64,000 nucleotides of DNA from Streptomyces sp. SUK 48 (GTDB lineage: Bacteria; Actinomycetota; Actinomycetes; Streptomycetales; Streptomycetaceae). Shown in pieces: positions 43,058-63,427 of this stretch (position 1 is the stretch's first letter; each line of letters opens with the position of its first letter). The stretch is taken from assembly GCF_009650765.1 (NCBI RefSeq), contig NZ_CP045740.1, forward strand, positions 3,262,001 through 3,326,000. Direction: 5' to 3'. Under the pieces are notes generated by a model. The model searched no databases. It had not been told where the DNA came from and saw nothing but the letters and a program-made list of their open reading frames with translations. The translations under genes and the position numbers were made by a program.

Positions 43058-43197
43058 GAAACTGACAGTAACCCCAGCGACCGTCTGCTTTCAGCAGTTT
43101 GCGCCGATTAACAGAAGTTGTTCGCATGGCCGAACCCGAAGTGGTATAGGACCTTCCCCCGACCTATCCCGCCCGACTATGCCAGCCGCATGTCCGG

Positions 43198-45457: not shown

Positions 45458-45469
45458 CTACGCGCGTAG
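45458..45469. promoter_or_regulatory. Nucleoside-regulon operator upstream of punA
   Basis: Perfect palindrome CTACGCGCGTAG, identical to 49592-49603 (deoC) and 61484-61495 (add). It overlaps the -35 position of the punA promoter, whose -10 is TACCCT at 45482-45487. Confidence 0.8.
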
Positions 45470-45494
45470 GCGAGAAGCGGCTACCCTCGTCCAC

Positions 45495-46319
45495 GTGAAC
45501 GCATCTCTTCTTCCGGACGACATCCAGGGCGACCCGTACGCCGCCGCCGACGCCGCCGCCGCGCGCCTGCGCGCACTGACCGGCGCCGAGACCCACGACG
45601 TCGCCCTCGTGATGGGCTCCGGCTGGGCTCCGGCCGTCGACGCCCTCGGCGCTCCCGACGCGGAGTTCCAGGTCACCGAGCTGCCGGGCTTCCCGCCGCC
45701 GGCCGTCGAGGGGCACGGCGGCAAGGTCCGCTCGTACACCTTCGGTGACAAGCGCGCCCTCGTCTTCCTGGGCCGTACCCACTACTACGAGGGCCGTGGC
45801 GTCGCCGCCGTCTCGCACGGCGTCCGTACGGCCGTCGCCGCCGGCTGCAAGACCATCGTGCTCACCAACGGGTGCGGCGGTCTGCGCGAGGGCATGCGCC
45901 CCGGCCAGCCGGTGCTGATCAGCGACCACATCAACCTCACGGCGACCTCGCCGATCGTGGGCGCGAACTTCGTCGACCTGACCGACCTGTACTCGCCGCG
46001 GCTGCGCGCCCTGTGCAAGGAGGTGGACCCCACCCTGGAGGAGGGTGTCTACGCGCAGTTCCCCGGCCCGCACTACGAGACCCCGGCCGAGATCCGCATG
46101 GCCCGTGTCATCGGCGCGGACCTGGTCGGCATGTCCACGGTCCTGGAGGCCATCGCGGCGCGCGAGGCCGGTGCCGAGGTCCTGGGCATCTCCCTGGTCA
46201 CCAACCTCGCCGCGGGCATGACCGGCGAGCCCCTCAACCACGAGGAAGTCCTCCAGGCCGGCCGCGACTCCGCCGCCCGCATGGGGACGCTGCTGGCCCA
46301 GGTGCTGCGCAAGCTGTAG
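45495..46319 (+). CDS. punA: Purine nucleoside phosphorylase
   Basis: 274 residues, the trimeric (class I) type. [11 protein letters not shown] is the phosphate site, [11 protein letters not shown] and [12 protein letters not shown] follow, and the base-binding block is [34 protein letters not shown]. It splits inosine, guanosine and deoxy forms into base and (deoxy)ribose 1-phosphate. The start is GTG 45495, seven bases after TACCCT, so leaderless. The palindrome CTACGCGCGTAG sits 25 bp before the start. Confidence 0.93.
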
Positions 46320-46976
46320 CCCCCGGCCGACGGTCCGGACATCGGGCGACCCGGACGCCGGGGCCCGGCCGGGCACCGGGAGCACGGGGGCTGCCGGGGC
46401 CGCGGTGGGGCGCGGCGGCCGTGGTGGGGCGCGGCGGCCACGGTGGGGCGGTGCGCGCGTGCCCCCGCCGGCGCCGGACCCCGCAGATGTCCGGCCGGCG
46501 CCGGGCGGCGTGCGTCCCGGCCCGCGTCGGACGGCCCGCGTCGGACGACCCGCGTCGGACGACCCGCGTGTCGAGTCCGGTGGCGGCTGACGGGCGTGGT
46601 CCGGACGAGGGCCGGGCGGCGCGAGTCGTCCGGCCGGGCAGCGGATCACATGCACGTTCCCGCCCGACGGCGGACCACGGGCCCGCCCCGGACGAGAGCC
46701 GGGCCGCGCGGGCCGTCCGGCCGGGCGGCGGGGCACGTGTGCATCCCGGTCGAGAGCCGGGCGGCGTGGACTGACCGGGCGGGCACCGGGTCGTGTGTAC
46801 GTCCCCGCCGACGGCATCACGTCCCCGCCGGCGGCGGACGGCGTGCGCGGTCCGGACGAGCAAGGCCCGGGCCGCCCCCGGAGCCATCCCCACCGCCCCG
46901 CCCCACCCGTCACCCATCCGGCCGACCGAGTCGGGCGGGCAGGACATCGGCAAACACAGGAGAGGTTGATCCCAAG
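46320..46976. repeat. 657-bp G+C-rich degenerate repeat block
   Basis: No gene is supported. It contains GGGGCGCGGCGGCC-type duplications (46404-46450), a 14-bp tandem GACSRCCCGCGTCG (about 46525-46567), and about 87-bp degenerate direct repeats beginning CCGGACGAG at 46601 and 46688, with a shorter third at about 46750. It separates punA from the mutase, with the mutase ribosome binding site AGGAGAGG at its end. Confidence 0.65.
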
Positions 46977-48620
46977 GTGCACGATCTGATCGCGCGGGCC
47001 AGCGCATGGCTCGCCGAGGACCCCGACCCGGACACCCGCGCCGAACTCGCCGAGCTGATCGAGGCCGGCGACGAGAAGGAACTGGCGGCGCGGTTCGCCG
47101 GCACCCTCCAGTTCGGCACCGCCGGCCTGCGCGGTGAACTCGGTGCCGGTCCGATGCGCATGAACCGGAACGTCGTCATCCGCGCCGCCGCCGGTCTCGC
47201 CGCGTACCTGAAGAAGAACGGCGCCCCCCACGGCGGCCCCGACGCCGGCCTCGTCGTCATCGGCTACGACGCCCGCCACAAGTCCGCCGACTTCGCCCGC
47301 GACACCGCCGCCGTGATGACCGGCGCCGGTCTGCGCGCCGCCGTACTCCCCCGCCCGCTGCCCACCCCCGTGCTCGCCTTCGCGATCCGGCACCTGGGCG
47401 CGGTCGCGGGCGTGGAGGTCACCGCGAGCCACAACCCGCCCCGGGACAACGGCTACAAGGTGTACCTGGGCGACGGCTCCCAGATCGTGCCCCCGGCCGA
47501 CGCGGGCATCGCCGCCGAGATCGACGCGATCGCCTCCCTGCACGACGTACCCCGCCCGGAGTCCGGCTGGGAGACCCTGGACGACGCGGTCCTGGACGCC
47601 TATCTCGCCCGTACGGACGCCGTACTGGCCGCCGGCTCCCCCCGCACCGCCCGCACCGTCTACACCGCCATGCACGGCGTCGGCAAGGACGTCCTCCTCG
47701 CCGCCTTCGCCCGGGCCGGCTTCCCGGAGCCCGTGCTGGTCGCCGAACAGGCCGAGCCCGACCCGGACTTCCCGACCGTCGCCTTCCCCAACCCGGAGGA
47801 GCCGGGCGCGATGGACCTGGCGTTCGGCCTGGCCCGCGCGACCGATCCGGACCTGGTCATCGCCAACGACCCGGACGCCGACCGCTGCGCCGTGGCCGTC
47901 AAGGACGGCGGCGAGTGGCGGATGCTGCGCGGCGACGAGGTCGGCGCGCTGCTCGCCGCCCACCTGGTGCGCCGGGGCGTCCAGGGCACCTTCGCGGAGT
48001 CGATCGTCTCCTCCTCGCTGCTCGGCCGGATCGCCGGCAAGGCGGGGCTGCCGTACGAGGAGACGCTCACCGGCTTCAAGTGGATCGCCCGCGTCGACGG
48101 CCTGCGCTACGGCTACGAGGAGGCCCTCGGCTACTGCGTGGACCCCGAGGGCGTGCGCGACAAGGACGGCATCACCGCGGCCCTCCTGATCACCGAGCTG
48201 GCGTCCGGGCTGAAGGAGGAGGGCCGTACCCTCCTCGACCTCCTGGACGACCTCGCCGTCGAGCACGGCCTGCACGCCACCGACCAGCTGTCCGTGCGCG
48301 TCCAGGACCTCTCCCTGATCGCCGACGCGATGCGCCGCCTGCGCGAGCAGCCCCCGACGCGGCTCGCGGGCCTGGCCATCACCCGGGCGGAGGACCTGAC
48401 CCGGGGCACCGAGACGCTGCCGCCGACGGACGGCCTGCGCTACACCCTGGACGGCGCCCGCGTCATCGTCCGGCCCAGCGGCACCGAGCCGAAGCTGAAG
48501 TGCTACCTGGAGGTCGTCGTACCGGTTCCGGACCGCGCGGACCTCCCGGCGGCGCACGCCCGCGCGAAGGAGCTCCTGGAGGCCGTCAAGCGCGACCTCT
48601 CCGCGGCCGCCGGCATCTGA
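46977..48620 (+). CDS. Phosphohexomutase-family enzyme, possible phosphopentomutase
   Basis: 547 residues. The phosphoserine loop is VTASHNPPRDNGYKVY, the metal loop is IANDPDADRCAV, the sugar loop is GYEEALGYCVD, and the phosphate loop is VRPSGTEPKLKCYLEV. All four functional loops are intact. It is usually annotated as phosphomannomutase, but length and order match the PGM2-like group, which includes phosphopentomutases. It lies between punA (makes pentose 1-phosphate) and deoC (uses deoxyribose 5-phosphate), the step a phosphopentomutase would fill. The start is GTG 46977. Confidence 0.87.
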   Translation: MHDLIARASAWLAEDPDPDTRAELAELIEAGDEKELAARFAGTLQFGTAGLRGELGAGPMRMNRNVVIRAAAGLAAYLKKNGAPHGGPDAGLVVIGYDARHKSADFARDTAAVMTGAGLRAAVLPRPLPTPVLAFAIRHLGAVAGVEVTASHNPPRDNGYKVYLGDGSQIVPPADAGIAAEIDAIASLHDVPRPESGWETLDDAVLDAYLARTDAVLAAGSPRTARTVYTAMHGVGKDVLLAAFARAGFPEPVLVAEQAEPDPDFPTVAFPNPEEPGAMDLAFGLARATDPDLVIANDPDADRCAVAVKDGGEWRMLRGDEVGALLAAHLVRRGVQGTFAESIVSSSLLGRIAGKAGLPYEETLTGFKWIARVDGLRYGYEEALGYCVDPEGVRDKDGITAALLITELASGLKEEGRTLLDLLDDLAVEHGLHATDQLSVRVQDLSLIADAMRRLREQPPTRLAGLAITRAEDLTRGTETLPPTDGLRYTLDGARVIVRPSGTEPKLKCYLEVVVPVPDRADLPAAHARAKELLEAVKRDLSAAAGI

Positions 48621-48627
48621 AACCGCC

Positions 48628-48677
48628 GCGGCCACCGGAAGACACCGGAAACGCGGCCACCGGAAATCACCGGAAAA
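48628..48677. repeat. 25-bp tandem duplication at the mutase 3' end
   Basis: Two units (48628-48652, 48653-48677), each starting GCGGCCACCGGAA and differing at three bases. They lie eight bases after the stop codon and before the terminator. Confidence 0.82.
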
Positions 48678-48728
48678 GCGAGGGGCACCCCCCCCGGATC
48701 GGTCCCGATCCCAGGGGGCGCCCCTCGC
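48678..48728 (+). terminator. Terminator of the mutase gene
   Basis: GCGAGGGGC and its complement enclose an inner C-run/G-run region. Confidence 0.7.
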
Positions 48729-48773
48729 GCGTACCGGCGCCGCGAACGCCGTACGGCCCGTACCGCCGTCTTC

Positions 48774-49466
48774 TCAGCCGCCGGTCGCCAGCAGGATCAC
48801 CAGCAGTACGGCGCCCGCCAGCGTCGGCGCCGCCACCTCGTAGGCCCAGCGGATCGTCGTACCGCCCTGGGCGGGCTCCTCGTTCCCGCGCCGGTCCAGG
48901 AGGTCGCGCAGGTCGTCCATGACCTTGTCGCTCTCCGCGCGGCTCGGCCCGTCGCCCCCGGCGCCGAGAGTGCCGAAGCCGACGCCCCGGGCGCCGATCC
49001 CGCCGCCGAGCCCCGCGCTGCCCGTCGCCGACCGCCGTGCCGCGGCCGCCGCCCGCCGCTCGGCCTTCTTGCGGCCGCGCAGCGACACGGGGACGGCCCA
49101 CAGCTGGTACTTGGCGCCGGACTTGGTGCGCACCTCGTTGGTGAAGCTGGAGCGCAGCGCCTCCACCTCGGTCCACGGCACGGTGATCACCCGGTACGGG
49201 TTGCGGATCCGCAGCCGGTCCTCGTTGGCGAACACGGCAGGGCGCAGCGTGAAGGCGATCACCAGCGGCAGCACCAGGATCATCGAGGCCAGCGCGAGCC
49301 ACGGGGTGCGGCCGTGGCCCTTGAACAGCGCGTCGAAGCCCAGCCAGGCGACGACCGCGAGCAGCAGCGCGCCGCCCGCGAGCCCCATGGGCGAGCGGTA
49401 GATCCGGTCCTTCACGGCGGGTACCGGAGGCTGCGACGCGGGTGGCTTGTTGTCCGGGGTCGTCAT
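48774..49466 (-). CDS. PH-domain (bPH-like) membrane protein
   Basis: 230 residues. Two N-terminal membrane helices (about residues 27-45 and 56-74) precede a pleckstrin-homology-like domain (about 80-130, LRIRNPYRVITVPWTEVEALR). A flexible Gly/Arg linker and a C-terminal membrane helix follow. It belongs to the actinobacterial low-molecular-weight PH protein group (cf. mycobacterial CFP6-like). Function unknown. It is divergent from deoC. The start at 49466 is preferred. An ATG five codons upstream is an alternative. Confidence 0.8.
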   Translation of the reverse strand: MTTPDNKPPASQPPVPAVKDRIYRSPMGLAGGALLLAVVAWLGFDALFKGHGRTPWLALASMILVLPLVIAFTLRPAVFANEDRLRIRNPYRVITVPWTEVEALRSSFTNEVRTKSGAKYQLWAVPVSLRGRKKAERRAAAAARRSATGSAGLGGGIGARGVGFGTLGAGGDGPSRAESDKVMDDLRDLLDRRGNEEPAQGGTTIRWAYEVAAPTLAGAVLLVILLATGG

Positions 49467-49591
49467 GGCCCGATTGTGCATGACGCCGCGGCGGGCGCCG
49501 CCATGTGCCCCGGCACCCGTATCCATCCGTGATCTTCCGGGCTCCGCACGGACCGGAGAGACCCGGAATCCGCCCCGGGGGTGTACAGCAG

Positions 49592-49603
49592 CTACGCGCG
49601 TAG
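49592..49603. promoter_or_regulatory. Nucleoside-regulon operator in the deoC promoter
   Basis: Perfect palindrome CTACGCGCGTAG, one base upstream of the -10 TATGCT (49605-49610). Confidence 0.8.
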
Positions 49604-49616
49604 ATATGCTCGTCTG

Positions 49617-50582
49617 GTGACCATGCCCACCACCGCACCCCCCGCACATGCGCTCGCCGACGTCACCGCGTCCGACAGCACGCTGCGCCGCTTCCTGCAC
49701 GGGCTGCCCGGCGTCGACGCGGTCGGCCTGGAGGCGCGCGCCGCGTCGCTCGGCACCCGTTCCATCAAGACCACCGCGAAGGCGTACGCCATCGACCTCG
49801 CCATCTCGATGGTCGACCTGACGACGCTGGAAGGCGCGGACACCCCGGGCAAGGTCCGGGCGCTCGGCGCCAAGGCGGTCCACCCCGACCCGACCGACCG
49901 CACCGCCCCGACCACGGCCGCGGTCTGCGTCTACCCGGACATGGTGGCCGTCGCCAAGGAGGCCGTCGCCGGCTCCCACGTCAAGGTCGCCTCGGTCGCC
50001 ACCGCCTTCCCGGCCGGCCGCGCCGCCCTCGAGGTGAAGCTGGCCGACGTGCGGGACGCCGTCGCCGCGGGCGCCGACGAGATCGACATGGTCATCGACC
50101 GCGGCGCGTTCCTCGCGGGCAAGTACCTGAAGGTGTACGACGAGATCGTCGCCGTCAAGGAAGCCTGCGGGACGAGCGCCCGGCTGAAGGTCATCTTCGA
50201 GACCGGCGAGCTGTCGACGTACGACAACATCCGCCGCGCCTCCTGGCTCGGCATGATCGCCGGCGCCGACTTCATCAAGACCTCGACGGGCAAGGTCGCC
50301 GTCAACGCGACGCCCGCCAACACCCTGCTGATGCTGGAGGCGGTGCGCGACTTCCGCGCCCAGACCGGCATCCAGGTCGGCGTGAAGCCGGCCGGCGGCA
50401 TCCGCACGACCAAGGACGCCGTCAAGTTCCTCGTCCTGGTCAACGAGACGGCGGGCCAGGACTGGCTGGACAACCACTGGTTCCGCTTCGGCGCCTCCTC
50501 GCTGCTGAACGACCTGCTGATGCAGCGTCAGAAGCTGGCCACCGGCCGTTACTCCGGCCCCGACTACGTGACGGTGGACTGA
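49617..50582 (+). CDS. deoC: Deoxyribose-phosphate aldolase
   Basis: 321 residues, a TIM-barrel class I aldolase of the long actinobacterial type. The Schiff-base Lys is in ADFIKTSTGK. AVCVYPDMV, EIDMVIDRGAF and KPAGGIRT are family blocks. It splits deoxyribose 5-phosphate to acetaldehyde and glyceraldehyde 3-phosphate. Initiation at GTG 49617 is six bases after TATGCT, so it is leaderless. The ATG two codons later is the other candidate. The downstream aldehyde dehydrogenase gene, five bases away, could oxidise the acetaldehyde. Confidence 0.93.
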   Translation: MTMPTTAPPAHALADVTASDSTLRRFLHGLPGVDAVGLEARAASLGTRSIKTTAKAYAIDLAISMVDLTTLEGADTPGKVRALGAKAVHPDPTDRTAPTTAAVCVYPDMVAVAKEAVAGSHVKVASVATAFPAGRAALEVKLADVRDAVAAGADEIDMVIDRGAFLAGKYLKVYDEIVAVKEACGTSARLKVIFETGELSTYDNIRRASWLGMIAGADFIKTSTGKVAVNATPANTLLMLEAVRDFRAQTGIQVGVKPAGGIRTTKDAVKFLVLVNETAGQDWLDNHWFRFGASSLLNDLLMQRQKLATGRYSGPDYVTVD

Positions 50583-50587
50583 TCACC

Positions 50588-52030
50588 ATGGCATCCGCAT
50601 CCGCATTCGAGTACGCACCCGCGCCCGAGTCCCGCTCGGTCGTCGACCTCGCGCCGTCCTACGGCCTGTTCATCGACGGCGAGTTCACCGACGCCACCGG
50701 CGGCAAGGTCTTCAAGACCGTCTCGCCGTCCACCGAAGAGGTGCTGTCGGAGGTCGCCGAAGCCTCCGAGGAGGACGTCGACCGCGCCGTGAAGGCCGCC
50801 CGCAGGGCCTTCGAGAAGTGGTCCGCGCTGCCCGGCGCCGAGCGCGCCAAGTACCTGTTCCGCATCGCCCGGATCATCCAGGAGCGCAGCCGCGAACTGG
50901 CCGTCCTGGAGACGCTGGACAACGGCAAGCCGATCAAGGAGACCCGCGACGCGGACCTCCCCCTGGTCGCGGCCCACTTCTTCTACTACGCGGGCTGGGC
51001 CGACAAGCTCGACCACGCGGGCTTCGGCGCCGAGCCGCGGCCGCTGGGCGTGGCCGGCCAGGTCATCCCGTGGAACTTCCCGCTGCTGATGCTGGCCTGG
51101 AAGATCGCCCCGGCGCTCGCGACCGGCAACACGGTCGTCCTGAAGCCCGCCGAGACCACCCCGCTGTCCGCCCTGTTCTTCGCGGACATCTGCCGCCAGG
51201 CGGGCCTGCCCAAGGGCGTCGTCAACATCGTGACCGGTGACGGCCGTACCGGCGCCGCCCTGGTCGCGCACCCGGACGTGAACAAGGTCGCGTTCACCGG
51301 CTCGACGGCGGTCGGCAAGGCGATCGCGCGGACCGTGGCCGGCACGCGCAAGAAGCTCACCCTCGAACTCGGCGGCAAGGGCGCGAACATCGTCTTCGAC
51401 GACGCCCCGATCGACCAGGCTGTCGAGGGCATCGTGAACGGCATCTTCTTCAACCAGGGCCAGGTCTGCTGCGCCGGCTCGCGGCTGATCGTCCAGGAGT
51501 CGATCCAGGACGAGCTGCTGGACGCGCTGAAGCGCCGCCTGTCCACGCTGCGCCTGGGCGACCCGCTGGACAAGAACACCGACATCGGCGCGATCAACTC
51601 CGCGGAGCAGCTGGCCCGGATCACCGCGCTGGCCGACGCGGGCGAGGCGGAGGGCGCCGAGCGCTGGTCCCCCGCCTGCGAACTGCCGGACGCCGGCTAC
51701 TGGTTCGCGCCGACGCTCTTCACGAACGTCACCCAGGCCCACACCATCGCCCGCGAGGAGATCTTCGGCCCGGTGCTGTCGGTCCTCTCCTTCCGCACCC
51801 CGGACGAGGCGGTCGCCAAGGCGAACAACACGCAGTACGGCCTGTCGGCGGGCATCTGGTCCGAGAAGGGCTCCCGCATCCTGGCCGTCGCGAGCAAGCT
51901 GCGCGCCGGTGTCGTCTGGTCCAACACGTTCAACAAGTTCGACCCCACCTCGCCGTTCGGCGGCTACAAGGAGTCGGGCTTCGGCCGCGAGGGCGGTCGC
52001 CACGGCCTGGAGGCGTACCTCGATGTCTGA
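50588..52030 (+). CDS. Aldehyde dehydrogenase (catalytic)
   Basis: 480 residues. The active site is complete: PWNFPLL, KPAETTPLS, FTGSTAVGKAI, ELGGKGANIVF with the catalytic Glu, and the nucleophile Cys in NQGQVCCAGSR. EEIFGPVLSVL and FGGYKESGFGRE close the fold. It starts five bases after deoC and is overlapped eight bases by the next gene, so all three are one operon. In this setting it would remove acetaldehyde from the DeoC reaction. Confidence 0.92.
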   Translation: MASASAFEYAPAPESRSVVDLAPSYGLFIDGEFTDATGGKVFKTVSPSTEEVLSEVAEASEEDVDRAVKAARRAFEKWSALPGAERAKYLFRIARIIQERSRELAVLETLDNGKPIKETRDADLPLVAAHFFYYAGWADKLDHAGFGAEPRPLGVAGQVIPWNFPLLMLAWKIAPALATGNTVVLKPAETTPLSALFFADICRQAGLPKGVVNIVTGDGRTGAALVAHPDVNKVAFTGSTAVGKAIARTVAGTRKKLTLELGGKGANIVFDDAPIDQAVEGIVNGIFFNQGQVCCAGSRLIVQESIQDELLDALKRRLSTLRLGDPLDKNTDIGAINSAEQLARITALADAGEAEGAERWSPACELPDAGYWFAPTLFTNVTQAHTIAREEIFGPVLSVLSFRTPDEAVAKANNTQYGLSAGIWSEKGSRILAVASKLRAGVVWSNTFNKFDPTSPFGGYKESGFGREGGRHGLEAYLDV

Positions 52031-52910
52031 CGCACGACTTTCCGTCTTCAAGACCTACAAGCTGTACGTGGGCGGCAAGTTCCCGCGTTCCGAGAGCGGC
52101 CGGGTGTACGAGGTGACGGACCCGAAGAACAACTGGCTGGCCAACGCACCGCTGTCCTCCCGCAAGGACGCCCGGGACGCGGTGGTCGCGGCCCGCAAGG
52201 CGTTCGGCGGCTGGTCCGGCGCGACCGCGTACAACCGCGGTCAGGTCCTGTACCGGGTCGCGGAGATGCTGGAGGGCCGCCGCGAGCAGTTCGTGCGCGA
52301 GGTGGCCGAGGCGGAGGGCCTGTCGAAGTCCAAGGCCGCCGCCGTCGTGGACGCCGCGATCGACCGCTGGGTCTGGTACGCCGGCTGGACCGACAAGATC
52401 GCCCAGGTGGTCGGCGGCGCGAACCCGGTCGCGGGCCCGTTCTTCAACCTCTCCTCGCCGGAGCCGACGGGCGTGGTCGCCGTACTGGCCCCCCAGGAGT
52501 CGTCGTTCCTCGGCCTGGTCTCGGTCCTCGCCCCGGTGATCGCCACCGGCAACACGGCCGTCGTCATCGCCGCCGAGAAGGCCCCGCTCCCGGCGCTCTC
52601 CCTCGCCGAGGTGCTGGACACGTCCGACGTCCCGGGCGGCGTGGTGAACATCCTCTCCGGCCGCCCGTCCGAGATCGCCCCCTCGCTGGCCGCGCACCAG
52701 GACGTGAACGCGATCGATCTCGCGGGCGCGGACGAGGAGTTGGCCAAGGAACTGGAGATCGCCGCCGCCGACAACCTGAAGCGCGTCCTGCGCCCCCGGG
52801 ACGTCGACTTCACGGCGACCCCCGGCACCGAACGCCTGACGGCCTTCCTGGAGACGAAGACCGTGTGGCACACGACGGGCGCACTGGGCGCCGCGGGTTC
52901 GTCGTACTGA
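52023..52910 (+). CDS. Aldehyde dehydrogenase-like protein lacking the catalytic half
   Basis: 295 residues, about 60 percent of a normal ALDH. It has its own N terminus (YKLYVGGKFPRSESGRVYEV) and the coenzyme-domain pattern (GVVAVLAPQESSFLG, IATGNTAVVIAAEKAPLPALSL, VPGGVVNILSG). The region that should hold the catalytic Glu and Cys is absent; instead it ends soon after ADNLKRVLRPRDVD. It is not a frameshifted piece of the preceding gene. In order and size, 480 + 295 resembles a split ALDH16, whose second domain also lacks the Cys. It is probably a structural partner. Confidence 0.82.
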   Translation: MSDARLSVFKTYKLYVGGKFPRSESGRVYEVTDPKNNWLANAPLSSRKDARDAVVAARKAFGGWSGATAYNRGQVLYRVAEMLEGRREQFVREVAEAEGLSKSKAAAVVDAAIDRWVWYAGWTDKIAQVVGGANPVAGPFFNLSSPEPTGVVAVLAPQESSFLGLVSVLAPVIATGNTAVVIAAEKAPLPALSLAEVLDTSDVPGGVVNILSGRPSEIAPSLAAHQDVNAIDLAGADEELAKELEIAAADNLKRVLRPRDVDFTATPGTERLTAFLETKTVWHTTGALGAAGSSY

Positions 52911-53002
52911 CGGACTGGTGACGGACTACCGACTGGCTGCTGACGGGGTCCGCGCGGGGAACCGTCGCCGTCGGCCGGGTGCGGGTCGCACTCGGCCGAT
53001 CG

Positions 53003-53035
53003 CGCGGTTCCCCGCGCCCCGTTGCAAGGCGCCCT
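53003..53035. repeat. Dispersed repeat (GGTTCCCCGCGCCCC type)
   Basis: Related to 32187-32212. It ends at the 3' end of the secreted-protein gene and may act as a terminator there. Confidence 0.5.
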
Positions 53036-53438: not shown

Positions 53439-53565
53439 CGCTGGTGCCACCTTCTGGTGCGCAGGGTAATGATGTCGCGACACAGGGTAGTTGAGAAGTG
53501 ACCCGCGCTTCAAAAGCGAACCGCGGGGTCGGCAGGTGCCACGCCATGCGTCAAACTGGTGTTCC

Positions 53566-54219
53566 GTGAGCATTCATCCCCCGCCCCCCGCCCGTGTCGT
53601 GCTGCTGTGCGGCCCCTCGGGTTCGGGCAAGTCCCTGGTCGCCGCCCGTTCCGGGCTGCCCGTCCTGCGCCTGGACGACTTCTACAAAGAGGCCGACGAC
53701 CCGACTCTGCCTCTGGTGGAGGGGAGTTCGGACATCGACTGGGACCACCCGGAATCCTGGGACGCGCAGGTCGCGCTCGACGCCATCAGCCGCCTGTGCG
53801 CCACGGGTTCGACGCCGGTGCCGGTGTACGACATCTCGCTCAGCGCCCGTACCGGCGAGGAGACGCTGCGGCTGGACCGTACACCCCTGTTCATCGCGGA
53901 GGGCATCTTCGCCGCGGAGATCGTCGAACGCTGCCGGGAACTCGGCGTCCTCGCCGACGCGCTCTGCCTGAACCGCGGCGCGGTCACCACCTTCCGGCGG
54001 CGCTTCGTGCGCGACCTGAAGGAGGGCCGCAAGTCGGTGCCGTTCCTGCTGCGCCGCGGCTGGCGGCTGATGCGCGCCGAGCGCACGATCGTCGCCCGCC
54101 AGGTGGCCCTGGGGGCCTACCCGTGCGACCGGGACGAGGCCCTGCGCCGGCTCACGGTCGCCGAGTGGGCCGGCAAGTACACCACCGCCGGGCGACGGCA
54201 CCGGGAAGCGGGACGGTAG
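53566..54219 (+). CDS. udk: Uridine kinase-like P-loop kinase
   Basis: 217 residues. Walker A is CGPSGSGKSLVA, LRLDDFYKEADDP is the nucleoside-binding loop of uridine kinases, and LFIAEGIFAAEIV is the Walker B-like strand. SVPFLLRRGWRLMRAERT contributes the Arg region. It would phosphorylate uridine/cytidine with ATP or GTP, although related actinobacterial proteins are only distantly like Udk. The start is GTG 53566, eight bases after CAAACT, so it is probably leaderless. Confidence 0.8.
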   Translation: MSIHPPPPARVVLLCGPSGSGKSLVAARSGLPVLRLDDFYKEADDPTLPLVEGSSDIDWDHPESWDAQVALDAISRLCATGSTPVPVYDISLSARTGEETLRLDRTPLFIAEGIFAAEIVERCRELGVLADALCLNRGAVTTFRRRFVRDLKEGRKSVPFLLRRGWRLMRAERTIVARQVALGAYPCDRDEALRRLTVAEWAGKYTTAGRRHREAGR

Positions 54220-54537
54220 AGCGCGGGGAACGGCGAAGGGGAACGGCAAAGAGGGGCCGCCCGGACCCCCCGGTCCGATCAGCCCCTCTCCGGTTCCTCC
54301 CCCGTGATTCCCCGCTTTCCCCCGTATCCCCCTGATTCCCCCGTCGCTCCTCCCCCATGAGCCGACGGACCGACGGGCCACGGGCCACCACCCCCACAGC
54401 GGCTACCCCGTGCTCCCCGTCGCCCCGTACTCCCCCGTCGTTCCCCCGTCGTTCCCCCGTGCTTTCCGAGCCGCCCCCAGCGGCCCGGGTCCCCGTTCCC
54501 CGTGTTCCCCCTACGTCCCCCGTGCTTCCCCCGTACC
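54220..54537. repeat. CCCCCGTG microsatellite-like tract
   Basis: 318 bp without a gene. TTCCCCCGTCG and TCCCCCGTGC units recur many times (clusters at 54424-54468 and 54494-54540). On the sigQ-sense strand these are closely spaced runs of four to five G, able to form G-quadruplexes. The same motif also appears inside the 5' part of sigQ (55068-55122, 55191-55214). Confidence 0.75.
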
Positions 54538-55326
54538 TCAGGCGACCAGTTCGCCGAAGGCGTTCTCCTCGTCACGGCCGAAGCTGAGGACCTCGTCCTC
54601 GCGCAGCCGGCGCAGCGAGCGCCAGATGCTGGACTTCACCGTGCCGACACTGATGTTGAGTATGTCCGCGATCTCCGGGTCCGTACGGCCCTCGTAGTAG
54701 CGCAGGACCAGCATGGTGCGCTGGAGCTCGGGCAGCCGCGCCAGCGCCTGCCACAGGACCGCGCGCAGCTCGGTGCCGCGCATCGCGTCCGTCTCGCCGG
54801 GCGTCTCGGGCAGTTCCTCGGTCGGGTACTCGTTGAGCTTGCGCCGCCGCCAGGCGCTGATGTGCAGGTTCGTCATCGTGCGCCGCAGGTAGCCGCCGAC
54901 GGCCGCCTTGTCGCTGATCCGCTCCCACGCCCGGTAGGTCGAGAACAGCGCGCTCTGGAGCAGGTCCTCGGCCTCGAAACGGTCGCCGGTCAGGTGGTAG
55001 GCGGTGGCGTACAGGGAGGCGCGGCGCTCCCGGACGTAGGCGGTGAACTCCGCCTCCGTCAGCGAGCGACGCTCCCCCGTGCCCTCCTTGTACGCGCTTC
55101 CCCCGTGCGTGTCCCCCGTGCGCGCGTCGATCACCGACATGTAGGGCTGCTGCCCGTACCCGCCGTGCTGACGCCCGGCACCGCGAGCACACCCCCGTGC
55201 TCCCCCGCGCTCGAACGCACTCGCGCGGGAGGTACCCCCATCGGCACCGGACTTCTCCGACCCCCGGTGCACGTCGTGCAGACGCGTGACCACTGCGCTG
55301 GTGCTGATGCTGTGCAGCGTGTTCAT
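54538..55326 (-). CDS. sigQ: ECF-type RNA polymerase sigma factor SigQ
   Basis: 262 residues. Region 2 is at about residues 88-160 (LYATAYHLTGDRFEAEDLLQSALFSTYRAW) and region 4 at 185-245 (LARLPELQRTMLVLRYYEGRTDPEIADIL, NISVGTVKSSIWRSLRRL). The first 87 residues are low-complexity, partly encoded by CCCCCGTG-type repeats. It is divergent from afsQ1-afsQ2, as in S. coelicolor, where AfsQ1 activates sigQ. The start MNTLHS at 55326 has a GGGGAG ribosome binding site. A longer start at 55515 is rejected because the sequence between is a 23-bp tandem palindrome array and it would sit on the AfsQ1 box. Confidence 0.9.
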   Translation of the reverse strand: MNTLHSISTSAVVTRLHDVHRGSEKSGADGGTSRASAFERGGARGCARGAGRQHGGYGQQPYMSVIDARTGDTHGGSAYKEGTGERRSLTEAEFTAYVRERRASLYATAYHLTGDRFEAEDLLQSALFSTYRAWERISDKAAVGGYLRRTMTNLHISAWRRRKLNEYPTEELPETPGETDAMRGTELRAVLWQALARLPELQRTMLVLRYYEGRTDPEIADILNISVGTVKSSIWRSLRRLREDEVLSFGRDEENAFGELVA

Positions 55327-55361
55327 CTCGCGCTCCCCGTCGTGGACTTCCGGTGCTTCTG

Positions 55362-55455
55362 TCCTGCTCCGGGTCTTCACCCGGCCGTACTCCGGGTCTT
55401 CACCCGGTCCTGCTCCGGGCCTTCGCCCGGTCGTGCTCCGGGCCGTTCCGGCCAG
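55362..55455. repeat. 23-bp tandem palindrome array in the sigQ leader
   Basis: Units spaced exactly 23 bp (cores at 55368, 55391, 55414, 55437). The core TCCGGGTCTTCACCCGG is an inverted repeat (CCGGGT/ACCCGG) with a four-base loop. It lies between the AfsQ1 box and the sigQ start, so the transcript leader would carry a row of hairpins. Confidence 0.82.
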
Positions 55456-55532
55456 TTCGGCCGGATCCGGCTGCTCGCCGTGCCCGTGACGAAAAGCCTG
55501 CCGGGGTGACTTCATCGGTGTGTCCCCCGACT

Positions 55533-55548
55533 GTCACAGACCTGTCAC
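55533..55548. promoter_or_regulatory. AfsQ1 binding site
   Basis: GTCAC-AGACCT-GTCAC, a perfect match to the published AfsQ1 consensus GTNAC-N6-GTNAC as I recall it. It lies between divergent sigQ and afsQ1, placed to control both. Confidence 0.85.
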
Positions 55549-55711
55549 AGGGCCCCCGGCCCTCGGCGCCGTCACAGGAAGTGCCCAGCCGGTCGCGCTA
55601 GCGCGGACAGGGGGCAGGGGGGTGACGGTGGTGCGGGGCAGGTCGTGGGGATACTGCGGGGCTGTGGCCGACAGGTCGTACGACAGCCCGTCCATGGGCC
55701 AGAATGAGCGG

Positions 55712-56389
55712 GTGCCTTCCCTGTTGCTGATCGAGGACGACGACGCCATCCGGACGGCCCTGGAGCTCTCACTGACGCGCCAGGGACACCGTGTGGCCAC
55801 CGCTGCCAGCGGCGAGGACGGTCTGAAGCTGCTGCGCGAGCAGCGGCCGGACCTGATCGTGCTGGACGTGATGCTGCCCGGTATCGACGGGTTCGAGGTG
55901 TGCCGGCGCATCCGGCGCACGGACCAGTTGCCGATCATCCTGCTGACCGCGCGCAGCGACGACATCGACGTGGTCGTCGGGCTGGAGTCCGGCGCCGACG
56001 ACTATGTGGTCAAACCGGTCCAGGGCCGGGTGCTGGACGCCCGGATCCGGGCCGTGCTGCGGCGCGGCGAGCGCGAGTCCAGCGACTCGGCGAGCTTCGG
56101 CAGCCTGGTCATCGACCGCTCGGCGATGACCGTGACGAAGAACGGCGAAGACCTCCAGCTCACCCCGACCGAGCTGCGGCTGCTGCTGGAGCTGAGCCGG
56201 CGGCCCGGCCAGGCGCTGTCCCGCCAGCAGCTGCTGCGGCTGGTGTGGGAGCACGACTACCTGGGTGACTCCCGCCTGGTGGACGCGTGTGTGCAGCGGC
56301 TGCGCGCCAAGGTGGAGGACGTGCCCTCGTCCCCGACCCTGATCCGTACGGTCCGTGGTGTCGGCTACCGCCTGGATACTCCTTCGTGA
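55712..56389 (+). CDS. afsQ1: Response regulator AfsQ1
   Basis: 225 residues, the known AfsQ1 length. The receiver domain has the phosphorylation site Asp52 (LIVLDVMLPGIDG), acidic pocket IEDDDAIR, Thr in ILLTARSD and Lys in DDYVVKPV. The OmpR-type winged helix follows (LTPTELRLLLELSRRPG, then VDACVQRLRAKV). With AfsQ2 it responds to nitrogen/glutamate conditions and controls antibiotic and nitrogen genes in S. coelicolor. The start is GTG 55712. Longer frames upstream run through the AfsQ1 box region and are rejected. afsQ2 begins at the overlapping GTGA. Confidence 0.94.
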   Translation: MPSLLLIEDDDAIRTALELSLTRQGHRVATAASGEDGLKLLREQRPDLIVLDVMLPGIDGFEVCRRIRRTDQLPIILLTARSDDIDVVVGLESGADDYVVKPVQGRVLDARIRAVLRRGERESSDSASFGSLVIDRSAMTVTKNGEDLQLTPTELRLLLELSRRPGQALSRQQLLRLVWEHDYLGDSRLVDACVQRLRAKVEDVPSSPTLIRTVRGVGYRLDTPS

Positions 56390-57987
56390 GCGATACGCGA
56401 GGGGGGCCGCGCGGCTGGTCCGCGGGGCGCAAGGGGGGTCTGTCCCGGCTCAGGTTCACCAGTCTGCGGCTGCGGCTGGTCGTCGTCTTCGGCCTGGTCG
56501 CGCTCACCGCCGCGGTGTCGGCGTCGGGCATCGCCTACTGGCTGAACCGCGAGGCGGTGCTCACCCGCGCCCAGGACGCGGTGCTGCGCGACTTCCGCCA
56601 GGAGATGCAGAACCGCGCGGGCGCGCTGCCCGTCCATCCGACCCAGGACGAACTCCAGCGCACCGCCGGGCAGATGGCGTCCAGCAGCCAGAGCTTCAGC
56701 GTGCTCCTGGTCGGCCAGGACGCGCACGGCAAGACGGTGTACGGCAACTCCGGTGGCATCAACGGGTTCTCCCTGGAGGACGTGCCCGCGTCGTTGCGTA
56801 CGGCGGTGGGCCGGCAGCAGGAGACCAGCGACACCGACAAGCAGTCGTACCACCTGTACTGGCAGCGCGTCGTGGAGCACGGCACGCCGTTCCTGGTCGC
56901 CGGTACGCGGGTGATCGGCGGCGGTCCGACCGGCTACATGGCGAAGTCCCTGGAGCCGGAGGCGAAGGATCTCGACTCGCTGGCCTGGTCGTTGGGCATC
57001 GCCACCGGCCTCGCGCTGATCGGCGCGGCGCTGCTCGCGCAGGCCGCCGCCACGACCGTGCTGAAGCCGGTGCACCGCCTCGGCGTCGCCGCCCGCCGCC
57101 TCGGCGAGGGCAGGCTGGACACCCGGCTGCGGGTGTCCGGGACGGACGAACTCGCCGATCTCTCCCGGACGTTCAACAACGCGGCGGAGGCGCTGGAGAA
57201 GCGGGTCGCGGACATGGCCGCGCGGGACGACGCCTCCCGGCGCTTCGTCGCCGACATGAGTCATGAGCTGCGGACGCCGCTCACCGCCATCACCGCCGTG
57301 ACGGAGGTGCTGGAGGAGGAGCTGGACGCGGACGCGGGCAGCATGGACCCGATGATCGAGCCCGCCGTCCGCCTGGTCGTCAGCGAGACGCGCCGCCTGA
57401 ACACCCTGGTCGAGAACCTCATGGAGGTCACCCGCTTCGACGCGGGCACCGCCCGGCTGGTCCTGGACGACGTGGACGTCGCCGACCAGATCACCGCCTG
57501 CATCGACGCCCGGGCCTGGCTGGACGCGGTGGAGCTGGACGCCGCGCGCGGCATCCACGCCCGCCTCGACCCGCGCCGGCTCGACGTGATCCTGGCCAAC
57601 CTGATCGGCAACGCCCTCAAGCACGGCGGCTCGCCGGTCCGGGTCGCGGTGCGCGAGGCGTCCGACTCGGTGGTCATCCAGGTCCGCGACCACGGCCCCG
57701 GCATCCCCGAGGACGTCCTGCCGCACGTCTTCGACCGCTTCTACAAGGCCAGCGCCTCGCGCCCCCGTTCGGAGGGCAGTGGCCTCGGCCTGTCCATCGC
57801 CATGGAGAACGCGCACATCCACGGCGGCGAGATCACGGCCGCCAACTCCCCCGAGGGCGGAGCGGTGTTCACCCTCCGATTGCCCCGGGACGCGTCGGAG
57901 CTGACGGAGGAACCGGACGAAGACGGCGGGAAGGATGCGAAGAAGGACGGCGACGGCAGCACGACGCGGGGGAAGGAGGGGCGATGA
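56386..57987 (+). CDS. afsQ2: Sensor histidine kinase AfsQ2
   Basis: 533 residues. Membrane helices at about residues 29-50 and 199-221 flank an extracellular sensor of about 150 residues. HAMP is at 222-280. The phospho-acceptor is His293 in MSHELRTPLTAI, and the ATPase domain has N (NLIGNALKHG), G1 (RDHGPGIPEDVL), F (VFDRFYKA) and G2 (GSGLGLSI) boxes. The C-terminal 30 residues are charged and disordered. Start GTG overlaps the afsQ1 stop (GTGA). It is also coupled (ATGA) to the downstream lipoprotein, so the three form one operon. Confidence 0.95.
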   Translation: MSDTRGGPRGWSAGRKGGLSRLRFTSLRLRLVVVFGLVALTAAVSASGIAYWLNREAVLTRAQDAVLRDFRQEMQNRAGALPVHPTQDELQRTAGQMASSSQSFSVLLVGQDAHGKTVYGNSGGINGFSLEDVPASLRTAVGRQQETSDTDKQSYHLYWQRVVEHGTPFLVAGTRVIGGGPTGYMAKSLEPEAKDLDSLAWSLGIATGLALIGAALLAQAAATTVLKPVHRLGVAARRLGEGRLDTRLRVSGTDELADLSRTFNNAAEALEKRVADMAARDDASRRFVADMSHELRTPLTAITAVTEVLEEELDADAGSMDPMIEPAVRLVVSETRRLNTLVENLMEVTRFDAGTARLVLDDVDVADQITACIDARAWLDAVELDAARGIHARLDPRRLDVILANLIGNALKHGGSPVRVAVREASDSVVIQVRDHGPGIPEDVLPHVFDRFYKASASRPRSEGSGLGLSIAMENAHIHGGEITAANSPEGGAVFTLRLPRDASELTEEPDEDGGKDAKKDGDGSTTRGKEGR

Positions 57988-58607
57988 CGACGGTACGACG
58001 ACCACGACACGGGCGCCGCTGGCTCGCCCTGCCCCTCCTGGGCGCCCTGCTCACCGGCTGCGGCATCCGCGCCACCCAGGTGCCGACCGACTTCGGCCCG
58101 GCGCCCTCACGGGTCCCGTGCTCCCTGACGGGCTCGGGCCAGGCGACGCAGCAGGGCGTTCCCGTCCAGGTCTTCCTGCTGTGCGGGGCGTCCCTGGTGA
58201 CCATGGACCGCACGGTACGGGTCCCGGAGGGCACCCCTGACGCCCGCCGCCGGGTGATGGTGGCCCAGGGCCTGCTGGACCAGCTGGCCACGGCCCCCTC
58301 CTCGGCGGAGCGTTCCGCGGGCTACGCCACCTACGTGCCGGGCGGCCTGACCGTCTCCGGGCCCGCCCCGCACGACCCCGAGGACACCCTCCGCCTGAGC
58401 ACCCCGCCCTCCCGCCTCCCCGCGTCCGCCCTGGCCCAACTGGTCTGCACCCTCTCGGACTCGGCCGCGACGGAGGGCGACGGCTCCGTCATCCTGGGCG
58501 GCCCCGCCCCCGCCCCGCTACGCCGCTACGCCTGCACGGACGACGTCCGCAACCACCCGGCCACAACAGCCCCACCGACGAGCGCGGTCCCGGAGGGAAG
58601 GGGCTAG
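57984..58607 (+). CDS. Lipoprotein of the afsQ operon
   Basis: 207 residues. The lipobox is ALLTGC (Cys about residue 26). The exported domain of about 150 residues has several Cys (VPCSLTG, FLLCGAS, LVCTLSD, RYACTDD) that may form two disulfides. It looks like the GerMN-type lipoproteins that accompany actinobacterial two-component systems (cf. LpqB), assigned loosely. It overlaps afsQ2 by four bases with a GGAAGGAGGGG ribosome binding site. It may tune AfsQ2 sensing. That is inference. Confidence 0.83.
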   Translation: MTTVRRPRHGRRWLALPLLGALLTGCGIRATQVPTDFGPAPSRVPCSLTGSGQATQQGVPVQVFLLCGASLVTMDRTVRVPEGTPDARRRVMVAQGLLDQLATAPSSAERSAGYATYVPGGLTVSGPAPHDPEDTLRLSTPPSRLPASALAQLVCTLSDSAATEGDGSVILGGPAPAPLRRYACTDDVRNHPATTAPPTSAVPEGRG

Positions 58608-58906
58608 GCCGACCCGACCGGGCTCGCCCCTGTCGTGCTCACCGAAGGCGTTCGGCGGCGGCGCCTGCGTCGAGGTCACCGGCCGCGTCCCCGGTGCCGT
58701 ACCCGTCCGGGGGGGGCAAAGTGACGGCCCGGTGCCGGGGGGAATCGGCGTGGGGGGAGTTCATCGGCGCCGTGGCCCGGCTCAAGGCGGCGGGGCGCTT
58801 CATGCGGCGCGCGGCGCGGCCCTTTCTTCGACTCGACCGGACGTTCGAGGACCGGCTCACATCCGGATGCGGAACCGATCGTACGAACCCGCGCGTCTTG
58901 GGGGGC
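58608..58906. other. Gap before vanZ-like gene
   Basis: 299 bp. The vanZ-like frame is open through it, but the last 60 bases before 58907 have poor codon bias, and no domain extends into it. It is probably promoter and spacer. Confidence 0.5.
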
Positions 58907-59470
58907 GTGCAGGGTCAAGAGGACTTCGGCGGCGTCGCCGCCATCCGCGTCCGGACGGCAGGGGGCATCCTCCTCCTCGCCGACATCGTCTTCGTCGCCT
59001 GGCTGATGCTGCGGCCACTGGACGTGCCCTGGGTGACACCGCCCAACCTGCACCCCCTGGCCGGTATCCGCGCCGACCTGGCGCTCGGGTGGCCGGGCGC
59101 GGTGAAGCCGCTCGGTGAGGGGCTCGCGCTGCTCGCGCCGCTCGGGGTGCTGCTGCCGATGGCGCACGGACGGCTCACCGTCTCCCCGCTCGCCTCGCTG
59201 CTGCGCACCGCCGCCGCGGTCTGCCTGATCTCGCTCGGCATCGCCCTGCTGCAGACCGGGGTGCCGGGCCGGGTGGTGGACGTCGACTCGCTGCTGCTGA
59301 ACACGGCCGGGGCGATCCTGGCCCATCTGCTCGTCGTACCGGCGGCCCGTGCGCGTCTGCGCAGGTGGGAGCGGGTGCACGAGGGTCTGGAGGCGGAGCC
59401 GGTCAGCTTTCAGGAGGGGCTTTCTCAGGGGCGGACCCCGACGATTCCCAGGGTCGGAATCGCTCCTTAG
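58907..59470 (+). CDS. VanZ-like membrane protein
   Basis: 187 residues with four membrane helices (about residues 12-32, 64-85, 95-117, 127-147) and the family pattern WLMLRPLDVPW, then NLHPLAGI and VDSLLLNTAGAILAHLL. VanZ-family proteins are linked to teicoplanin resistance and to envelope lipid changes. The role here is unknown. GTG 58907 (VQGQEDFGG) is chosen from the family start. The frame is open upstream to 58694 or earlier and a longer N terminus is possible. Confidence 0.78.
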   Translation: MQGQEDFGGVAAIRVRTAGGILLLADIVFVAWLMLRPLDVPWVTPPNLHPLAGIRADLALGWPGAVKPLGEGLALLAPLGVLLPMAHGRLTVSPLASLLRTAAAVCLISLGIALLQTGVPGRVVDVDSLLLNTAGAILAHLLVVPAARARLRRWERVHEGLEAEPVSFQEGLSQGRTPTIPRVGIAP

Positions 59471-59558
59471 AGTGACGCTTCATCCCCTTCGTGTCCGTAT
59501 CGTCGTAGACAGCTGATCGAGCAGACCGACGATCAGGCCGACGACCACGGAGGAAACC

Positions 59559-59762
59559 ATGACCGCCCTTGCCCGACCCACCCACGGCCGCATGATCGGC
59601 GGAGTGTGCGCGGGCCTGGCCCGCCGCTTCGGTACCTCCGCCACCACGATGCGCGTGATCTTCGTGCTGTCCTGTCTGCTGCCGGGTCCTCAGTTCCTGC
59701 TCTACATAGCCCTGTGGATCCTGCTGCCGTCCGAGGACAAGGCCCGCGTCGGCAACTGGTGA
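59559..59762 (+). CDS. PspC-domain protein
   Basis: 67 residues, essentially one PspC domain: GRMIGGVCAGLARRFGTSATTMRVIFVLSCLLPGP split over one amphipathic helix and one membrane helix, ending LYIALWILLPSED. PspC domains sit in the membrane and regulate envelope-stress responses. Here the protein is a minimal version. A GGAGGAAACC ribosome binding site precedes the ATG. Confidence 0.9.
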   Translation: MTALARPTHGRMIGGVCAGLARRFGTSATTMRVIFVLSCLLPGPQFLLYIALWILLPSEDKARVGNW

Positions 59763-59827
59763 CGCACCGCGCCGCCGGGGCGCTCCGGTCGGAGCCGGAA
59801 CACCGCGGCGGCGTCGGGGTGGTGGCG

Positions 59828-60136
59828 TCAGCCGAGCGGGATCCCGTTGACGCCCATGCCGTGGGTGGGCAGGCCCGTGCTGCCGAGCGGCAGTCCGCCG
59901 AGCAGCCCGGTCGGCCCCTGCGCGAGCACACGCTGCACGGCCGGCTTCGCGGCGGCCACGCCGGAGGCCACGGCGCCCTGCCCCTGGGTGAGCCCCTCGA
60001 CGGTCCCCGGCAGCGCCTTGGCGACCTGCGTGGCGTCGGGAGCGGCGGGGGCCGCGTTGGCGGCGCCCGCGCCGACGGCGGCGAAGGCGGCACCGAGGGC
60101 GGCGACACCGAGGGTCTTGACGGCAGACTGCTTCAT
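59828..60136 (-). CDS. Small secreted protein
   Basis: 102 residues. Signal peptide MKQSAVKTLGVAALGAAFAA with cleavage near ANAAPA. The mature region of about 70 residues is Gly/Ala/Pro-rich (GTVEGLTQGQGAVASGVAAA, then GLLGGLPLGSTGLPTHG), with no cysteines. It resembles the secreted protein encoded at 53.0-53.4 kb in composition and size, so the two may be paralogues. An AAGGA ribosome binding site lies 11 bases upstream. Confidence 0.8.
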   Translation of the reverse strand: MKQSAVKTLGVAALGAAFAAVGAGAANAAPAAPDATQVAKALPGTVEGLTQGQGAVASGVAAAKPAVQRVLAQGPTGLLGGLPLGSTGLPTHGMGVNGIPLG

Positions 60137-60279
60137 GGTGAATGCGTCCTTGAATGCGGAGACGGAAAACTTCAGGAGCGGTCCATGACCGTAAACGCGC
60201 CGCACCCCGACCCGCAATCACCAAAATGCGGACGCCTCGCGAAAGCGCGTCCGCATTCCGTACCGCGAGCGGCGTCAGC

Positions 60280-61467
60280 TCACCCCCCGGAACTCACAGA
60301 ACCGCTGGTGGGAGGCGTGTGGCGAAACAGCCATTCGGATTTCAGTTCGGCGTATCCGGGCTTGATGACGTCATTGATCATCGCAAGACGTTCATCGAAA
60401 GGAATGAACGCTGATTTCATCCCATTGACAGAGAACCATTGAAGGTCGTCGAGCGTATAACCGAACGCGTCGACAAGATGCTCGAACTCCTGGCTCATGC
60501 TGGTGTGCGACATAAGACGATTGTCGGTATTAACCGTGGCCCGGAACAGCAGCTTGCGCAGCAGTCCGATCGGATGCTCGGCGTAGGAGGACGCGGCCCC
60601 CGTCTGGAGATTGGAACTGGGGCACAGTTCCAGCGGGATCCGCTTGTCCCGGACGTAGGACGCGAGCCGCCCGAGCCGCACCGACCCGTCCGGCCCGACC
60701 TCGATGTCGTCGATGATCCGCACCCCGTGCCCGAGCCGGTCGGCGCCGCACCACTGCAACGCCTGCCAGATGGACGGCAGTCCGAAGGCTTCCCCGGCGT
60801 GGATGGTGAAGTGGTTGTTCTCGCGCTTGAGGTACTCGAAGGCGTCCAGGTGCCGGGTGGGCGGGTGCCCGGCCTCGGCGCCGGCGATGTCGAAGCCGAC
60901 GACGCCGGAGTCCCGGTAGCGGTTGGCGAGTTCGGCGATCTCCAGGGAGCGGGCCGCGTGCCGCATCGCGGTGAGCAGGGCGCCGACCCGGATCCGGTGC
61001 CCGTTCTCCCGGGCGAGCCGCTCACCCTGCCGGAACCCCTCGTCGACCGCCTCGACGACCTCCTCCAGGGTCAGCCCCCGCTCCAGGTGCTGCTCGGGCG
61101 CATAGCGCACCTCGGCGTAGACCACCCCGTCCTCGGCGAGGTCCTCGGCACACTCCCGGGCGACCCGGACGAGGGCCTCCCGGGTCTGCATCACGCCGAC
61201 GGTGTGCCGGAAGGTCTCCAGATAGCGTTCCAGCGACCCTGAGTCGGCGGCCTCGTGGAACCAGATCCCCAGTTTTTCGGGATCGGTCTCGGGAAGCTCC
61301 GGGTACCCGGCGTCCCGGGCGAGTTCGACGACGGTTTTGGGCCGCAGCCCGCCGTCCAGATGATCGTGCAGCAGAACCTTGGGCGCCCGGCGGATCTGGT
61401 CCGGCGTCGGTACATGCCCGGCGGCATTCGCCGGGACGGTCCCCTTCGGTGCAGTCTGGCTCGTCAT
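60280..61467 (-). CDS. add: Adenosine deaminase
   Basis: 395 residues. The zinc ligands begin with His34 and His36 in LLHDHLDGG and continue in [20 protein letters not shown] and [11 protein letters not shown] are family blocks, and the final Asp pair region reads [15 protein letters not shown]. It turns adenosine and deoxyadenosine into inosine and deoxyinosine for PunA. The ATG follows TACAGT by six bases (no ribosome binding site), so it is leaderless, and the nucleoside palindrome lies just upstream. Confidence 0.93.
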
Positions 61468-61483
61468 TTCCGCACTGTACTGC

Positions 61484-61495
61484 CTACGCGCGTAG
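61484..61495. promoter_or_regulatory. Nucleoside-regulon operator in the add promoter
   Basis: Perfect palindrome CTACGCGCGTAG, four bases upstream of the -10 TACAGT (61479-61474, minus strand). Confidence 0.8.
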
Positions 61496-63365: not shown

Positions 63366-63383
63366 GGGAACGATTATGGCGAT

Positions 63384-63396
63384 TCCATGCATTGGA
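63384..63396. promoter_or_regulatory. LysR box TCCATGCATTGGA
   Basis: Inverted repeat with T-N11-A spacing. It overlaps the -35 (TTGGAC, 63392-63397) of the MFS gene, whose -10 is TACGGT at 63416-63421. Confidence 0.7.
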
Positions 63397-63427
63397 CGGA
63401 TGAGGGGAGTGTCCCTACGGTCGAAGC

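Follow-up and report, generated by a model that had tools for sequence, protein, structure and literature searches.

A 64,000-nucleotide stretch of the Streptomyces sp. SUK 48 genome (G000:C1:3262001-3326000 of 8.34 Mb, hereafter the window) carries three perfect copies of the 12-bp palindrome CTACGCGCGTAG, each lying immediately upstream of a nucleoside gene, namely punA, deoC and add. Comparison of genomes indicates that this palindrome is very probably one dedicated operator for nucleoside genes throughout the family Streptomycetaceae. The fuller proposal, in which this nucleoside-scavenging operator is bound by a LacI-type repressor resembling SCO4158, is put forward tentatively, with a likelihood slightly under even.

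Within the window, exact copies occur only at 45458-45469, 49592-49603 and 61484-61495, as the original prediction had stated, and a search of the complete single-contig genome (8,341,671 bases) returned these three and no others, against a single match for the reversed pattern that served as a control. All three stand at nucleoside genes, 13 nt from the start codon of deoC, 16 nt from that of add and 25 nt from that of punA, and the motif thus behaves as expected for a coordinated regulon, being shared, tied to one pathway and rare elsewhere. The excess of unrelated copies that had been feared from a genome-wide search did not appear, and the proposal of one operator common to punA, deoC and add is strongly supported.

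At punA, encoding a purine-nucleoside phosphorylase (45495-46319, + strand; NCBIfam TIGR01698, 342 bits against a cut-off of 302.6), the operator covers the -35 position and ends 12 nt before a -10-like TACCCT (45482-45487, +), itself 7 nt before the GTG at 45495; a similar hexamer is found at a similar place in the compared rows. At deoC, encoding a deoxyribose-phosphate aldolase (49617-50582, +; TIGR00126, 180 bits against 117.3), it lies inside the spacer between the -35 and -10 elements, 1 nt from a -10-like TATGCT (49605-49610, +) placed 6 nt before the GTG at 49617. This GTG is an assumed start, an ATG being present two codons on, and a TGTACA at 49582-49587 (+), with a 17-bp spacing to the -10, is a possible -35 that shows no strong conservation across 80 named promoters. 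At add, encoding an adenosine deaminase (60280-61467, - strand, with its ATG at 61465-61467; NF006847, 635 bits against 412), the operator is 4 nt upstream of a -10-like TACAGT (61474-61479, -), which precedes the ATG by 6 nt and appears as TAGAGT or TACAGT in several compared rows. A good -35 hexamer is not apparent for either punA or add, and none of the three starts has a purine-rich Shine-Dalgarno run ahead of it. The predicted geometry, with the operator 1-12 bp from the -10 element, the latter 6-7 nt from the start codon and no ribosome binding site, holds for all three genes.

Conservation of the motif follows the family. The exact 12-mer is present in every one of the 150 genus genomes searched, with 572 copies (two to six per genome) against 70 for the reversed control, and in 120 of 121 genomes of the Streptomycetaceae, representing 16 of 17 genera. 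A class-wide draw of 296 genomes found it in all 28 members of the window's genus and in 10 of the 268 others; seven of these ten outgroup loci were compared with the pathway genes, without a match at any of the seven. At orthologous promoters the operator is exact in 44 of 47 punA rows, with one mismatch in two and two mismatches in one, and exact in seven of nine deoC rows, with one mismatch in the remaining two. Sixteen of 24 add rows are exact; in the other eight the extrapolated start lies too far upstream, and an exact copy is present at a distance of 7-40 nt from the aligned coding part. For a given gene the operator keeps nearly the same position across species, but this position differs from gene to gene. 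A 19-mer combining the operator with the deoC -10 element occurs in at least 120 genome stretches, and the 80 listed among them are all Streptomyces or Kitasatospora by title; 79 of the 80 titled deoC promoters have 6 nt between TATGCT and the GTG, and the remaining one has 7 nt. Divergent members of the family carry altered forms: G445, the sole family genome in which the exact 12-mer is missing, carries versions with one or two mismatches, CTACGCGAGTAG at deoC and CTACGCGCGTTA at punA, and G437 and G440, from two divergent genera, have CTACGCGCATAG at punA, G437 also having CTACGCGTGTAG at deoC.

GC-rich genomes hold many similar words, and the palindrome could in principle have arisen by chance or be a structural repeat, without any regulator shared by its copies. 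Counts that tolerate two mismatches would agree with this, as the window gives four matches against 4.35 expected in shuffles, with no excess, and the whole genome gives 216 forward matches against 610 in the control, with no enrichment; the window shuffle test at two mismatches says nothing about the exact 12-mer, and two-mismatch scans are not used here as support. The exact copies, by contrast, are specific, far above their control and held at the same promoter positions across the family. A chance repeat is accordingly rejected as extremely improbable, because every genomic copy stands at a nucleoside gene, the genus count far exceeds its control, the family carries the motif almost without exception and the promoter positions are kept.

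The regulon is also wider than the original prediction had it: punA, deoC and add stand, but the limitation to these three genes does not. One exact match was read in each of 48 genomes of the genus, and 43 of the 48 loci are those of punA, deoC, add, a second add (approximately 60% identical) or a transporter operon, while two (L041, L065) fall between mshD and the gene of a secreted 5'-nucleotidase. Of the remaining three, one is situated between purQ and lsr2 in G274 (L076) and two (L038, L043) show no clear link; the identities of mshD, purQ and lsr2 are our own readings of the sequences. In genomes for which all copies were read, the fraction in the pathway is six of six (G135), five of five (G099), four of five (G095) and four of six (G124), and the copies of G135 include one at a secreted nuclease gene (L083) that is ExeM/NucH-like at 158 bits against a cut-off of 300. 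In two other genera, purN-purH is preceded by an exact motif (L219:3424, L212:3686), and the presence of the motif here and at purQ-lsr2 suggests that the regulator may also reach into de novo purine synthesis in certain lineages.

The SUK 48 genome itself contains 23 places that differ from the operator by one mismatch; 21 were read, six being linked to the pathway and 15 having no firm link. Such one-mismatch sites are found at the transporter operon (CTACACGCGTAG at L025:9431, 9.4 kb past the window), at a 5'-nucleotidase or cyclic-phosphodiesterase gene (L013), at purQ-lsr2 (L014), at an NCS2-type permease gene (L016) and, as a pair, at the second add (L023, L024). The transporter operon comprises an ABC ATPase gene, permease open reading frames (ORFs), cdd and deoA, and is preceded by a Bmp/PnrA-type binding-protein gene. 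It is probably a nucleoside ABC transporter-cdd-deoA operon, its specificity being judged from this neighbourhood, as the nearest NCBIfam model is missed by far. The regulon therefore extends to the transporter operon and the second add and, in some species, to genes for the secreted 5'-nucleotidase, the nuclease and purine synthesis. Two points tell against so coherent a picture. The transporter exceeds no NCBIfam equivalog cut-off, the closest being that of a putative B6 transporter ATPase (455 against 670 bits), and exact copies at five loci of the family (L038, L043, L087, L215, L218) have no nucleoside link as far as they were read.

Several further sites were recorded alongside these. 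A secreted protein of unknown function, which gives only weak ABC_transp_aux or NTTRR-F1 matches, has an exact motif upstream in four genomes from other genera of the family (L207-L210), approximately 55 nt upstream in L207, and its homologue in the SUK 48 genome has a one-mismatch site (L022). At L218:4540-4600 (G513), the palindromes CTACATATGTAG, CTACGCGCGTAG and CTACGTGCGTAG stand in a row between genes with no evident nucleoside role, and this trio is perhaps the site of another regulator. In the SUK 48 genome, a carbon-nitrogen hydrolase gene (L005:627-1487, -) adjoins the one-mismatch site CTACGCCCGTAG, and a gene for a secreted PLD-type protein (L011:1561-2556, +) adjoins CTACGCGCGTGG. 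In the window, an aldehyde dehydrogenase gene (50588-52030, +; Pfam Aldedh) begins 5 bp after deoC and is probably co-transcribed with it. An ORF with a second aldehyde dehydrogenase (51909-52910, +; Pfam Aldedh), whose 5' part overlaps the first, possibly belongs to the same operon. Divergent from add is a hydrolase-like ORF (61624-62388, +), which could be co-regulated with add because the intergenic region with the operator is common to both.

A -10 element placed just before the start codon, with no Shine-Dalgarno sequence, is the layout of leaderless promoters. With the -10 element 6-7 nt before the start and no Shine-Dalgarno sequence, punA, deoC and add all have this layout, and their transcripts may be leaderless, the layout being a fit and not a proof. 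The claim thus stands at sequence level for the three genes, but not for the transporter operon, where GAGGAG precedes the assumed ATC start and 79 nt separate the site from it, nor for the second add, where the site falls inside codons 3-7 in five genes of other species and the two sites of the SUK 48 genome stand over 100 nt upstream. For the window's own three genes, occlusion of the core promoter is the natural interpretation. It does not serve as a general rule: at the punA genes of G437 and G440, whose site lies 44-45 nt before the GTG, and at the transporter operon, the arrangement is not one of simple occlusion, and outside the three promoters of the window a roadblock or upstream mode is needed.

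With regard to the binder, the genome contains 19 places encoding a LacI-type helix-turn-helix, and no exact or one-mismatch site lies near any of these 19 genes in the 3-kb loci searched. The candidate retained here, at G000:C1:4512208-4513230 and 1.2 Mb from the window, is called the SCO4158 type because its gene follows one read as GlnR-like. PMC9739823 describes SCO4158 as a LacI regulator downstream of glnR and suggests it as a possible regulator of glnR; the title of a work cited there gives it an effect on an antibiotic pigment. Tables in other papers place it among ArgR-binding regions and, with SCO4920 (DeoR family), among the regulators of a carbon-catabolite study. The candidate is a LacI-family protein by its Pfam PF00356 match and by full-length phmmer matches to the structures of CcpA, RbsR and PurR. 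It is present in 122 of 122 family genomes, and relatives at 41-46% identity (E 1e-50 or better) occur in only five of 64 outgroup genomes, a distribution that counts in its favour.

Two further lines of evidence point to this protein. Its promoter, GTCAATCCGCGTAGACTCCGCGCGTGG, has TAGACT as a -10 element 6 nt before the GTG, with the operator half-site CGCGTAG built in, and this half-site recurs in 47 of the 54 promoters compared among its family relatives, while mononucleotide shuffles contain it in 2.1% of cases. The best match to the operator averages 2.83 mismatches in these promoters and 4.63 (standard deviation 0.11) in shuffles, figures that overstate the case since the compared rows are related to each other. 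The other line comes from LacI paralogues of 39-41% identity, which adjoin an ABC ATPase gene in four family genomes. Two of these four clusters, read ORF by ORF (L183, L185), are rbs operon-like, the ribokinase of L185 scoring 277 bits, just under the cut-off of 300. The promoters of these RbsR-type LacI genes (L183-L186, and L222 from the outgroup) carry repeats of CAACACGAGTTG or CAACTCGTGTTG, probably the ribose operator, and both share with CTACGCGCGTAG the frame CnACnCGnGTnG, a match whose probability by chance we estimate at about one in ten. The recognition helices of the two protein types are nearly identical, differing at two neighbouring residues (GTSTAVVSYV in the candidate, GTSPSVVSYV in the RbsR type).

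On this basis the SCO4158-type protein may bind CTACGCGCGTAG, an assignment that falls just short of an even chance, and several features of the promoter data weigh against it. The half-site is missing in seven of the 54 rows, including those of G445, G437, G440, G471 and G450, and its TAG doubles as part of the -10 element. Some counts are lowered by a second near-site across the start codon. A full operator with at most two mismatches lies strictly upstream of the LacI start in only one of 37 rows, and the promoter in the SUK 48 genome has only near-sites, with two and three mismatches. As a separate observation, G233, an outgroup genome with three copies of the 12-mer, has two of them flanking, at approximately 15 and 16 kb, a LacI gene of 46% identity whose recognition helix is likewise GTSTAVVSYV; on our reading, the ORFs of this region (G233:C1:2070000-2125000; L091, L246-L248) resemble genes of 7-deazapurine-type biosynthesis along with sulfatase and transposase genes, and do not point to nucleoside catabolism.

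The same operator and regulon could also be served by a different protein, for example one of the TetR or GntR families or another protein of the family core, and we consider this main rival possible, at somewhat less than an even likelihood. CG-centred palindromes are not exclusive to LacI proteins, the regulators compared were the LacI genes, DeoR and, by place only, LysR, and the LacI promoter offers half-sites and not the full operator. What speaks for the LacI candidate over such a protein is the conservation of the half-site in its promoter and the operator frame held in common with RbsR. XdhR, a known regulator of purine salvage, is not suggested by the data, as an xdh gene appears at none of the 21 one-mismatch loci that were read. 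The LysR gene beside add (62412-63440) was judged solely from its position, as the neighbour of an MFS gene in other genomes, and from the different type of binding site that LysR proteins use.

DeoR represses deo genes in Escherichia coli, and the DeoR-family gene at 42125-43057 (-), which the original prediction had named as the alternative regulator, encodes a true DeoR-type protein that is found in 16 of 16 family genomes tested and lies near punA in several (L086, L090, L095, L097, L211, L214). It is nevertheless a poor candidate, and an improbable repressor of these genes, because none of 23 DeoR promoters carries even the half-site (nor does any of 36 in a second row set), another block is conserved there instead, and DeoR relatives of 53-71% identity occur in 18 of 64 outgroup genomes, 17 of which lack the exact 12-mer, although a changed motif at their punA or deoC is possible. 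That the DeoR promoter lacks the site had been correctly noted. Autoregulation is usual for DeoR-type regulators, though not obligatory. The conserved block of these promoters (43058-43160 in the window and 22 orthologous rows), around CTGAAAGCAGACGGTC and GTTACTGTCAG, is unlike the nucleoside operator and probably represents DeoR's own operator. The earlier guess of a LacI-type repressor is accordingly favoured over DeoR, by the half-site and the RbsR operator frame, while falling short of proof.

In the mechanism that we propose, a dimeric repressor would bind CTACGCGCGTAG in or beside the core promoter and block RNA polymerase, acting at the -35 position of punA, between the -35 and -10 elements of deoC and directly upstream of the -10 element of add. 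An intracellular nucleoside or pentose-phosphate signal would release it, and transport, deamination, phosphorolysis and deoxyribose-phosphate cleavage would then be switched on together. The SCO4158-type, RbsR-like LacI protein would be the likeliest repressor, probably tuning its own leaderless promoter through the half-site.

In enteric bacteria, the CytR and DeoR regulons place nucleoside uptake and catabolism genes under a repressor with a palindromic operator, and the arrangement described here resembles them in having one repressor type, a palindromic operator and scattered transcription units. It differs from them in the operator itself, in the leaderless appearance of its promoters and in the score of the candidate against CytR (170.5 bits, cut-off 436). 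LacI-family control of nucleoside use is also known from UriR, AdeR and HpxR, which head local regulons (PMC4052901); the candidate scores 116 bits against the UriR cut-off of 550, and the accessible part of that work names no such group for the Streptomycetaceae. The RbsR/PurR branch is the closest, in nearest NCBIfam models, in solved structures and through the RbsR paralogues of the family with their related operator frame, but the candidate remains under both cut-offs (190 against 382 and 180 against 501 bits) and is not in an rbs operon. The Arg that precedes LEGY in RbsR is aligned with His in the candidate, and its effector may therefore differ from that of RbsR. As the candidate passes none of the equivalog cut-offs tested, the system appears to be a nucleoside regulon with its own operator that works like the CytR and DeoR regulons.

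In Streptomyces coelicolor, purine salvage is under the transcriptional control of XdhR, as the system here would be, but the targets given for XdhR are xdhABC and act genes (PMC6627660), and no xdh gene was seen at the one-mismatch loci read here. SCO4914 is named as deoxyribose-phosphate aldolase in PMC3293853. A literature search, with subscription papers mostly outside its reach, gave no account of CTACGCGCGTAG as an operator and none that links SCO4158 to nucleosides, and text matches to the core 10-mer were judged unrelated from titles and the opening lines of abstracts.

Streptomyces recycle DNA and RNA, one source being their own mycelium as it lyses. According to PMC6627660, purine pools matter for development and for the production of antibiotics. 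A conserved operator common to nucleoside uptake and catabolism, together with a named candidate repressor, makes the control of nucleic-acid recycling testable, and it gives SCO4158, a protein of so far unsettled function, a candidate role as that repressor. The broadest reading is the more doubtful one that the SCO4158-type protein acts as master repressor for the scavenging of nucleic acids across the family, governing secreted nuclease, 5'-nucleotidase, nucleoside uptake and catabolism genes and, in some lineages, the purine-synthesis genes purN-purH and purQ, mostly through leaderless promoters. If true, it would tie the turnover of DNA and RNA to the antibiotic-pigment effect cited for SCO4158.

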